Assembly: GCA_023382455.1 (NCBI GenBank)
Contig: JAHDVX010000027.1
Coordinates: 9,776-46,886, forward strand
Length of the DNA stretch: 37,111 bases
Direction: 5' to 3'
Source: Flavobacteriales bacterium
Lineage (GTDB): Bacteria > Bacteroidota > Bacteroidia > Flavobacteriales_F > PHOS-HE28
Shown here: positions 1-1,614 of the stretch, in pieces
Numbering within the stretch: the first letter of the stretch is position 1
Layout of the letters: every line of letters begins with the position of its first letter
Notes under the pieces: generated by a model
Databases searched by the model: none
Told to the model about the DNA's origin: nothing
The model's input: the letters and a program-made list of their open reading frames with translations, nothing else
Made by a program: the position numbers and the translations under genes

Positions 1-95
1 TGTCAGTCCGAGCGCAGCCGGGTGTTTTGCAAGCCTGTCAGTCCGAGCGCAGCCGAGTGTTTTGCAAGCCTGTCAGTCCGAGCGCAGCCGAGGAC
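1..95 (+). repeat. Tandem 35-bp direct repeats, two full copies and one partial
   Basis: The unit starts TGTCAGTCCGAGCGCAGCCG and continues with (g/a)GTGTTTTGCAAGCC. It occurs at 1-35 and 36-70, and its first 22 bases recur from 71. The third copy then diverges into GGAC plus a reverse-complement echo of GCAAGCCTGT at 96-105. An inverted copy of the core lies at 473-497 and a 13-base partial direct copy at 528-540. The array may extend leftward beyond the window. It is non-coding and looks like a dispersed genomic repeat family. It is not a CRISPR array, because no unique spacers separate the copies. Confidence 0.9.
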
Positions 96-110
96 ACAGG
101 CTTGCACACC

Positions 111-430
111 TTAATCCTCTCTTTCCGAACGGTCGTGCCGAGATGAGTTCCTGCACTTGGCCAATTCATGCAGCACTGCTTCATCGTTCATGATGAGCGC
201 ACGCTTTTCGCAGGTGACCAACCCTTCAATTGCTTTTCGCGCCGGATGGCATGCTGGATCCACTGATAGGATTCCACATACACCAGCTTCAATGGGCGTC
301 GCTTGGCAGTATAGGAAGTTGGCTGGAGACCATCACAGTGCTCTTGAAACCGGCGACCTACATCGTTGGTGACACCGGTATAGTACGTGCCGTCACTGCA
401 CAGGATCATGTACGTGTAGTAGACATGCAT
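111..430 (-). pseudogene. GIY-YIG single-domain nuclease, frameshifted near the C-terminus
   Basis: From the ATG at 430 the product has the GIY-YIG core: YYTYMILCSDGTYYTGVTND, then RRFQEH, a YT/KRRP segment and the REKQLKGWSPAK helix. These match the small UPF0213/YhbQ-like nucleases of about 80-110 residues. After the lysine of SPAK the frame reads SVRSS and stops at 188. Adding one A to the A4 run (TTTT at 205-208 on the plus strand) restores the usual continuation KKRALIMNDEAVLHELAKC, ending at a TAA at 111-113. That continuation is family-like, so a one-base deletion is the best reading. It could also be a sequencing error or a tolerated truncation. A GTG at 457 would extend the N-terminus, but that start lies inside the 451-470 hairpin stem and the core begins at the ATG. 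The partner or target is unknown. Confidence 0.8.
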
Positions 431-450
431 AGCGGGAAGGTACCGTTGGG

Positions 451-516
451 CGATCACATGCGAACAAGTTTGGTCCTCGGCTTCGCTCGGACTGACAACT
501 TGTTCGCATGTGATCG
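451..516. repeat. Perfect 20-bp inverted repeat (hairpin) with repeat core in loop
   Basis: Arms 451-470 (CGATCACATGCGAACAAGTT) and 497-516 are perfect reverse complements around a 26-base loop. The loop holds an inverted copy of the repeat core found at 71-95. An alternative pairing exists: 485-497 (GCTCGGACTGACA) can instead pair with 528-540. The two stems cannot form fully together, so the structure could switch. It lies immediately upstream of the GIY-YIG start and could form in RNA or single-stranded DNA. Confidence 0.85.
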
Positions 517-591: not shown

Positions 592-1614
592 TCAGGCCCA
601 CACCGGGCAGCCTTCGCTGCAATTCCGGCACATGTCGATGCTTCCGCGGTCGTGCAGCACACGGCTGCGGAAGGCGTTGTAGCGCGGCCCGTGCCAGATC
701 TCCCGGAAGCTTTGCCGCGTAAGGTCGCCCATCACCCACTTGGCATCCTTGTCGAAACAGCAGGGCACCACCTTGCCATCCCATGTCACCACGCAGCTGT
801 GCCACATCTTCCAGCAGTGGTTGCCCATCTTGCCCTTGAACTCCCACACGCCGTCCTTGTTGCGGCGGTAGCGTGCGTATTTGTCCTGCGTGGGGATCAG
901 CGGATGGTCGTCGTGCGGGTCGTAGATCTGGGCCGTCTTCAGCCACAGGTCGTCCACGCCGATTTTCTTGGCCAGTTTCCGCGCTTCGGGGATCTGGTGT
1001 TCGTTGGGCTTCACCACCAGGAACTGGAAGACGATGTGGGGTGTAAGGCTCTTCAGCTTCTTCTTCCAGGCCACCACGCGTTCGGCGCCTTCGATCACGG
1101 TGCTCAGCGTGCCTTCACGCCGGTAGGCGGAATACGTTTCCTGGTCCGTGCCGTCGATGCTGATGATCAGCCGCGACAGCCCGCTGCGCACGGTCTCCTC
1201 CGCCTTGGCCTCGGTGAGGAAGTGCCCGTTGGTGCTGGTGTTAGTATAGATGCCCTTTTCGTGCGCATAGTTCACCATCTCCAAGAACTTCGGGTTGATG
1301 AACGGCTCCCCCTGGAAGTAGAAGGTGAGCGCCCACAGATCATCGGCCAGCTCGTCGATCACCTGCCGGAACAGGTCTTGCTTCAGGTTGCCCGTGGGGC
1401 GGGTGAAGGCGCGCAGGCCGCTGGGGCATTCGGGGCAGCGCAGGTTGCACGCCGTGGTGGGCTCCATGCTGATGCTGAAGGGCATGCCCTCGATCACCGG
1501 CTTCCTGGTGTGCTTCGCCTGGCGGAAGCTGCGCCAGATGCGGTAGGCGTTGCGTGCCCGGCGCGCCGTCAGCGGGCCGGCCCAGATCCGGGCATCGCGA
1601 AGCGCGGCAAGCAT
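592..1614 (-). CDS. Radical SAM protein with SPASM-type C-terminal domain
   Basis: This 340-residue protein has the radical SAM signature CNLRCPEC, with cysteines at about 56, 60 and 63 to bind the SAM-cleaving [4Fe-4S] cluster. The GEP-like motif (QGEPFINP, about 101-108) and the STNG and SIDG motifs of the TIM barrel follow. The C-terminal part carries further cysteines at about 267, 274, 285-286, 329, 332 and 336. This is a SPASM/twitch pattern that binds one or two auxiliary clusters. Family members modify peptides or act as anaerobic maturases; the substrate cannot be read here. No small precursor peptide gene is evident beside it, which argues against a ribosomal-peptide role but does not exclude it. 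It diverges from the DUF5686 gene, with 77 bp between the starts. Confidence 0.9.
   Translation of the reverse strand: MLAALRDARIWAGPLTARRARNAYRIWRSFRQAKHTRKPVIEGMPFSISMEPTTACNLRCPECPSGLRAFTRPTGNLKQDLFRQVIDELADDLWALTFYFQGEPFINPKFLEMVNYAHEKGIYTNTSTNGHFLTEAKAEETVRSGLSRLIISIDGTDQETYSAYRREGTLSTVIEGAERVVAWKKKLKSLTPHIVFQFLVVKPNEHQIPEARKLAKKIGVDDLWLKTAQIYDPHDDHPLIPTQDKYARYRRNKDGVWEFKGKMGNHCWKMWHSCVVTWDGKVVPCCFDKDAKWVMGDLTRQSFREIWHGPRYNAFRSRVLHDRGSIDMCRNCSEGCPVWA

Follow-up and report, generated by a model that had tools for sequence, protein, structure and literature searches.

Tagged palindromic repeats marked by GTAG have a known partner enzyme, the HUH/Y1 transposase (TnpA-REP) of the REP/RAYT arrangement. 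Another set of such repeats carries the tag CGTC. According to the part of the survey by Di Nocera et al. (2013, PMC3733652) available to us, CGTC-tagged REPs are defined in five phyla, their tag is often TGTC or CCTC, and the superfamily includes Neisseria CGTC-1, which is dRS3, as well as RPE-4 and RPE-6 of Rickettsia conorii. The same part describes an 8-9 bp stem with A-T at the first two positions, an unpaired tail that is mostly CCA, and an occurrence mostly as HH dimers, and it reports no dedicated enzyme found for these repeats by 2013.

Here we describe a Flavobacteriales genome (G000) in which a short GIY-YIG nuclease gene lies between two inverted tagged hairpins. A preliminary description of this DNA had read the locus as a REP/RAYT-like arrangement with a GIY-YIG enzyme in place of the Y1 transposase, and had left the choice between a non-classical mobile element and a domesticated nuclease acting on its own repeat. 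We hold it to be probable that the locus is a REPtron-like mobile element, that is, a stand-alone GIY-YIG gene bounded by its own tagged hairpins and accompanied by gene-less copies. We observe the association of gene and repeat, an orientation bias, a match between protein clade and repeat type, stem covariation, and a difference between occupied and empty sites. On the best reading, CGTC/TGTC-tagged REPs have their cognate enzymes in short GIY-YIG nucleases, with the cleavage and the copying route inferred.

We know of no reported link between UPF0213 GIY-YIG proteins and repeats. A literature search that did not extend to subscription journals or preprints gave, among the matches listed and in the text accessible for them, no link between GIY-YIG proteins and REP-like bacterial repeats. 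The word "GIY" is absent from the accessible text of PMC12306157 and PMC6006769, both of which mention the 2013 survey by title, and a word search of what is accessible of the GIY-YIG superfamily survey (PMC1564403) returned neither "palindrome" nor "inverted repeat" nor "UPF0213". One article, as far as its text is available, lists a RAYT gene together with a GIY-YIG gene but draws no connection between the two (PMC9465073).

The GIY-YIG gene and its tagged hairpins

The unit is located between the convergent stop codons of frr (C27:8908-9468), which lies just beyond the left end of the window (the whole stretch of 37,111 nucleotides that was analysed), and a radical SAM/SPASM gene, the right-hand host gene (592-1614, minus strand). 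Between them, an open reading frame at 188-457 on the minus strand encodes a short, UPF0213-like GIY-YIG nuclease whose sole Pfam match is GIY-YIG (PF01541, E 7e-17); the nearest solved structures to the family profile are the UPF0213 proteins 1zg2 and 1ywl. The protein keeps the conserved residues Y16, Y26, G28, R36 and E74. Compared with the proteins of two congeners (G015 and G008), the frame is shifted near the C-terminus, which is cut off; the remnant of the C-terminus lies out of frame on the same strand at approximately 111-206. The gene is single in its genome, the one other match being weak (E 3e-4). NCBIfam gave no match to the window protein, PADLOC gave no defence-protein match for two GIY-YIG proteins, and a search of RNA families gave a single match, far under the gathering score (mir-341, E 0.23).

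The gene is flanked by a 25-nt inverted repeat (71-95 and 473-497; 24 of 25 identical, 96% complementary), as the preliminary description had stated. The left copy, TGTCAGTCCGAGCGCAGCCGAGGAC, reads TGTCA-GTCC-GAGCGCAGCCGA-GGAC on the plus strand and is the core of a first full tagged hairpin (64-105) with outer arms at 64-73 and 96-105. The right copy is the core of a second full hairpin on the minus strand (451-516), with a GAA triloop, an outward tag and outer arms at 451-470 and 497-516. The outer arms are locus-specific and differ between the copies, pairing over 10 bp on the left and 20 bp on the right. When folded as single-stranded DNA, the segments around the two hairpins (61-110, z -5.1; 446-521, z -8.4) each beat 200 of 200 shuffles. 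Both outer stems are present as first described, each with a core in its loop, but that picture needs two corrections: the core can itself form a hairpin, and 71-95 shares 3 nt with its own outer arm, 64-73.

Of the further copies that had been noted, those on the left are real: window base 1 falls inside a tandem array with a 35-bp unit, and positions 1-57 hold two incomplete tagged hairpins of that array on the plus strand (cores 1-20 and 36-57). Immediately to the left, still inside the array, are 100 N (G000:C27:9676-9775), probably an assembly gap, and the array resumes on the far side. The copy claimed at 528-540 is only partial (13 bp). It belongs to a feature on the plus strand (525-591) that also comprises a longer hairpin belonging to a second type of repeat and abuts the radical-SAM stop codon; related sequences lie at C1:236082, C17:11056 and C1:116387 of the same genome. 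Copies of this second, longer type (525-591; L005, L008, L016) mostly start with a TGTCA-like tag, and the one in the window contains a nested GGATGC..GCATCC hairpin.

The layout of the core is TGTCA, one side of a 4-bp stem that is variable yet paired, and GAGC-loop-GYCGA. In DNA folding, three of four cores form the 4-bp stem, followed by an internal mismatch (GA/CGA), a GC/GC step and a loop of three bases, and the fourth (GTTC stem) adopts a slightly different fold. As the bare 25-mers of the four cores fold hardly better than their shuffles (z -0.04 to -0.56), the support for this hairpin comes from covariation rather than energy. Stems in the window's genome are GTCC/GGAC, CTCC/GGAG, GTTC/GAAC and GGCC/GGCC, and the loop is GNA with C, A, T or G as its second base. 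Mini-hairpins of the form d(GCGNAGC) are known for their stability. The 4-bp stem is fully paired in 38 of 49 copies at the fetched loci (shuffled mean 5.0, maximum 11 in 500), and in 69 of 88 distinct genome-string rows, representing 24 stem types, among the matches listed in a hairpin search of 198 genomes (shuffled mean 4.7, maximum 13). A reversed-pattern control matched once in each of 3 of the 198 genomes and nowhere in a search of 39 genomes. In the search pattern the tag and the bases next to the loop are prescribed, and a copy with a terminal T is missed; the repeats detected de novo next to GIY-YIG genes, which are free of this bias, carry the same tag. The window copies are followed by ACA or CAA, and many clade-B flanks by CCA.

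Occupied sites, empty sites and dispersed copies

We examined 27 frr loci of the genus, excluding two partial matches. The radical-SAM gene is visible at 15 of these, and the other 12 have no match to it in the stretch examined. In ten congeners the stop codons of frr and the radical-SAM gene are -4 to 75 nt apart and the slot is empty, while in G000, G015 and G008 it holds a clade-A GIY-YIG gene (898 nt including N, 500 nt and 491 nt, respectively). In the occupied genomes everything between the two stop codons is extra, so that a unit at 64-516, as first proposed, can be seen but its ends are not established as the boundaries of a mobile unit. Other genomes differ in the content of the slot: G006 has a different GIY-YIG (37.5% identical over the match) on the other strand with other repeats, and G004 has about 1.3 kb between frr and the radical-SAM gene without a GIY-YIG match. 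As judged by eye, the slot of G040 contains a single hairpin of another type. In G047, a member of another family, a second-clade GIY-YIG gene lies between homologues of both neighbours (60% each by tblastn).

In G015 the GIY-YIG gene (73%) and its neighbour (75%) have diverged to a similar extent, which, together with the shared slot in G000, G015 and G008, fits long vertical descent rather than frequent hops. Conserved synteny without terminal repeats had been named as an outcome that would refute the initial interpretation; it is half met, since the gene of G015 and G008 does sit in conserved synteny, yet with repeats at its ends.

A second slot is found in Azospirillum lipoferum 4B, where a GIY-YIG gene between two REPs separates sufB from sufC. 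These two genes are adjacent in A. ramasamyi, A. oryzae, Azospirillum sp. B510, A. thermophilum and A. argentinense, and by eye none of the five empty sites has a CGTC/TGTC hairpin; the B510 site has another palindrome. The sufB-sufC slot of Shinella sp. PSBB067 is occupied by a different GIY-YIG gene and a different REP pair than in A. lipoferum. Orthologous loci without the unit, a point raised in the preliminary description, are thus present as ten congeners and five Azospirillum genomes, and by eye the empty relatives at both slots have no resident REP pair of that type.

The core is dispersed in its genome, as had been supposed: allowing up to 3 mismatches, it occurs at 22 places including the window copies, and the reversed pattern at none. 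Inverted pairs no more than 1.5 kb apart are confined to the window or adjoin it, and the remaining copies are single or tandem. Clustering in inverted pairs, which had also been suggested, therefore fails for the rest of G000 but holds at GIY-YIG genes of other genomes. Several copies lie in frame within long open reading frames of unrelated coding genes, which we compared with orthologues in up to seven congeners. The inserts in what we take from the translations to be urocanase (net difference 69 nt), HsdM (18 nt) and a type-IIG enzyme at a first site (69 nt) are absent in 5 of 5, 3 of 3 and 3 of 3 orthologues. Those at a second presumed type-IIG site (36 nt) and in a macroglobulin-like protein (12 nt), likewise named from their translations, are absent in 3 of 4 and 6 of 7, with another hairpin in G017 and in G003, respectively. 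All five net differences are divisible by three. Because the gain at the 18- and 12-nt sites is smaller than the core, native sequence must there have been replaced or have diverged.

At three coding positions, in dapD (C7:56934), the macroglobulin-like gene (C17:31242) and a type-IIG gene (C5:179499), the hairpin family differs by species. By eye, dapD carries a GTCA-palindrome of another family in three of six relatives (G012, G044, G003), a remnant resembling the core in G019, and neither in G017 and G022. Does this reflect a permissive loop in the protein, or a shared target rule? Six copies of a longer repeat (C5:38263, C14:25688, C21:3763, C22:43076, C28:29528 and C44:1820; loci L031, L014, L032, L033, L034 and L037) bear the tagged core at the apex, which looks as though the core had inserted into the tip of a different palindromic element. 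Recent copies of the whole unit are represented, in the eight genomes examined, by one fair case only (G152, 488 bp at 86%).

Locus-specific outer arms (score at least 7) accompany 22 of the 49 copies (shuffled mean 1.8, maximum 5 of 50). At the frr slot, the arm next to the inserted hairpin repeats, in inverted orientation, the 3' coding end of the same species' own frr, over 16 bp in G008, 8 bp in G000 and 12 net pairs in G015, and empty frr sites have no such arm. We infer that outer arms arise by fold-back synthesis at or after insertion. The arms are inverted, and six coding-site alignments inspected by eye gave no clear direct target-site duplication. The limited share of copies with clear arms, the lack of a visible direct duplication and the small net gains at two coding sites count against the mobile-element reading. 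A rule that the new arm is always on the tag side fits frr, the radical-SAM gene and the window, and fails for a type-IIG insertion.

The location of the hairpins immediately 3' of the frr and radical-SAM stop codons, the conserved synteny in three species, and the persistence of stem pairing in a genome without a small GIY-YIG gene (G067, below) would also suit a domesticated or policing nuclease that cuts or resolves REP hairpins, the REPs being host 3' hairpins or terminators and any mobility lying in the past. We regard this as quite unlikely, as the gene in the window carries a frameshift, close relatives have an empty slot, the sufB-sufC slot holds two different GIY-YIG genes in two genera, and copies lie in frame inside unrelated coding genes. 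Of the two possibilities left by the preliminary description, a mobile element fits better than a domesticated nuclease, although neither activity has been observed.

Pairing of GIY-YIG genes and repeats across bacteria

We scanned for clade-A genes with an alignment of eight proteins and analysed the best 80 of 549 confirmed candidates. These 80 are mostly from Bacteroidota, many of them metagenome-assembled genomes, and the other record titles among them name Nitrospirae, Nitrospinota, Spirochaetes, Chlorobiota, Deltaproteobacteria and Patescibacteria. A flanking pair was defined as an inverted repeat within 350 bp on both sides. By this definition, 46 of the 80 GIY-YIG loci are flanked, compared with 12 of 1,649 control positions taken from these loci. 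For the second clade the figures are 10 of 29 loci and 0 of 267 control positions (five of the 29 are genes also found in another search), and for plasmid records, 11 of 15 and 17 of 375. The plasmid tblastn search returned 31 records, of which 15 were analysed and 16 of genera already taken were excluded; two of the 11 flanked plasmid loci, from Sphingobium, are near-identical. A GIY-YIG gene between inverted repeats, first described from the window, thus recurs in all three sets.

In ten of the 11 flanked plasmid loci the repeat is CGTC-tagged, and at the S. meliloti plasmid locus it is a CCTC-tagged palindrome on the other strand. CGTC-tagged REPs flank the sister clade in Azospirillum, Sphingobium, Shinella, Rhizobium, Aeromonas and Neisseria; they are identified as CGTC REPs by the published description (tag, lengths of stem and loop, tail) and not by a consensus figure. 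Taken together, the 150 GIY-YIG loci divide into 73 with a pair (57 typed, 16 untyped) and 77 without one by our definition, the latter counting against the GIY-YIG reading. The tag of the nearest upstream copy points outward at 53 of the 57 typed loci and inward at 4. A tree of the 57 proteins splits into two clades (SH-aLRT 100), on which repeat type changes 16 times, compared with 32.4 times after shuffling, and none of 200 shuffles was as low. This tree is built on few columns, has many unresolved forks and includes near-copies that inflate clustering, and two clade-A rows (L079, L107) carry a label intended for clade B. Active-site residues are kept in nearly all of the 73 flanked proteins (Y16 in 71, Y26 in 73, G28 in 72, R36 in 70, E74 in 73).

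Among six proteins from the same genomes, assigned by eye to another small GIY-YIG type, five (L030, L069, L072, L074, L076) have no flanking pair and one (L075) has a palindromic pair. At L368 (G107:C25), seven tandem hairpin units of 74-75 bp lie beside the GIY-YIG gene, echoing the 35-bp tandem array of the window. On a Planktothrix plasmid (L283), a GIY-YIG gene lies between genes annotated as type IIL MmeI and DISARM drmA; no flanking pair was found for it.

Strong palindromes are common downstream of genes, and the locus might in principle be an ordinary one, in which a conserved housekeeping gene is accompanied by terminator-like palindromes of chance similarity. This is hardly credible given the 22 genomic places against none for the control, the enrichment of flanking pairs over control positions, and the empty orthologous sites; chance or a simple terminator is ruled out by the genome counts and controls. 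Mobilisation in trans by a RAYT or other transposase, with the GIY-YIG gene irrelevant, was left open by Di Nocera et al. (2013). According to the available part of that survey, many CGTC-positive species have tyrosine transposases, and none of those genes is flanked by CGTC units (PMC3733652), whereas the GIY-YIG genes are flanked, and we consider such mobilisation very unlikely.

Gene and repeat also co-occur at the level of whole genomes. Hairpin counts in 198 genomes of this class show four or more copies in 26 of the 37 genomes whose clade-A gene is strong (E up to 3e-35), compared with 25 of the remaining 161; by family, the figures are 15 of 21 and 6 of 45 (within-family permutation p 0.007). 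There are exceptions on both sides, and they count against the GIY-YIG reading. Of 53 genomes carrying a clade-A gene at 94 bits or more, 15 have no hairpin copy, and of 145 without such a gene, 16 have at least 10 copies, although all 16 have some GIY-YIG match. G067, the richest in repeats among the genomes seen (247 copies), lacks a small GIY-YIG gene, its GIY-YIG matches being confined to frames of 609 and 460 aa, and G074 (13 copies) has its sole match in a 613-aa frame. A requirement of the repeats for a resident small GIY-YIG gene fails for these two genomes. By eye, the stems of G067 are paired in all but 3 of 100 copies listed, and at 25 of 30 loci they form inverted pairs with the tags outward and the starts 48-53 bp apart, which is the layout of the gene flanks minus the gene. 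The inverted pairs of G067 are often nested in another repeat (CGTCATTGCGAGGAACGAAGCAATC).

Some insertion sequences insert into REP pairs as safe havens. Small GIY-YIG genes could likewise be passengers that enter REP pairs spread by another agent, as the lack of such a gene in G067 and the many genomes with REPs but without a strong gene would suggest. We think this unlikely, though not to be dismissed. The empty sufB-sufC and frr/radical-SAM relatives have, by eye, no REP pair of that type, so that repeats and gene appear together; repeat type tracks the protein tree; and the orientation bias is 53 to 4. The reading of the GIY-YIG genes as cognate enzymes of the repeats is in our view the better one, and the REP/RAYT-like arrangement originally proposed is borne out by the dispersed copies, the flanking pairs, the tag-outward bias, the tree-repeat match and the empty sites.

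A proposed route and comparison with known systems

How could a GIY-YIG nuclease spread a hairpin? We propose that the enzyme recognises the hairpin through its tag (TGTCA or CGTCA) and the loop-proximal bases, and would read the stem by shape, since stem sequence drifts while pairing stays. It may then nick at the tag or close to it, with the repeat in single-stranded or extruded form, although no cleavage has been observed. The nick is inferred to leave a free 3' end that could prime repair synthesis, and a new copy would arise by strand switching without a covalent transposase intermediate; transposition, too, has not been observed. Locus-specific inverted outer arms, such as the copy of the frr 3' coding end, are the scar to be expected of fold-back synthesis. 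Enzymes of this family would also act on the proteobacterial CGTC-tagged REPs, dRS3 among them.

More tentatively, and somewhat short of what we would call probable, stand-alone GIY-YIG nucleases may drive a separate class of mobile element behind the whole CGTC/TGTC REP superfamily in several phyla. Such a class would be defined by hydrolytic nicking of a tagged hairpin, fold-back strand-switching synthesis that needs no covalent transposase step, and a target duplication that is inverted, not direct, and would cover dRS3 and the CGTC-matching Rickettsia palindromic elements. The recurrence of the GIY-YIG/REP pairing in several phyla suggests that it would supply the unknown mover of a large repeat class, and a small nuclease between its own repeats makes the missing-enzyme question for CGTC REPs directly testable. 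If the reading is correct, the partnership of REP and enzyme arose at least twice, with unrelated enzymes, and repeats at gene ends, in frame within proteins and, as where the window starts, coinciding with assembly gaps would have an origin.

Among solved structures, the family profile comes closest to the UPF0213 proteins mentioned above (1zg2, 1ywl). Homing endonuclease genes and Penelope-like elements likewise employ a GIY-YIG nuclease for gene mobility, according to the accessible part of the superfamily survey (PMC1564403). Unlike these, the unit described here has no visible intron, intein or reverse transcriptase, and it has its own repeats at both ends and many gene-less copies.

The CGTC superfamily is closer: it shares with our repeats a CGTC or TGTC tag, a palindrome and insertions within coding genes. 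The flanking repeats of most plasmid clade-B GIY-YIG genes fit the superfamily's description, and stems of at least 8 bp occur at clade-B flanks, e.g., in A. lipoferum. The window type, on the other hand, combines a short stem of 4 bp with a GA/CGA mismatch and a GNA triloop where the superfamily has an 8-9 bp stem. As its tag matches and its stem length does not, we file it as CGTC-like, outside the four families.

The REP/RAYT system differs in having an HUH/Y1 enzyme and a GTAG tag; the present unit has a GIY-YIG nuclease with no Y1 match and a TGTCA or CGTCA tag, and since neither the Y1 enzyme nor the GTAG tag is present, we place it outside the RAYT family. In organisation the two are alike: both combine a tagged imperfect hairpin, scattered copies, a gene bounded by inverted copies, inverted pairs without a gene, and a repeat type tied to the lineage of the enzyme.
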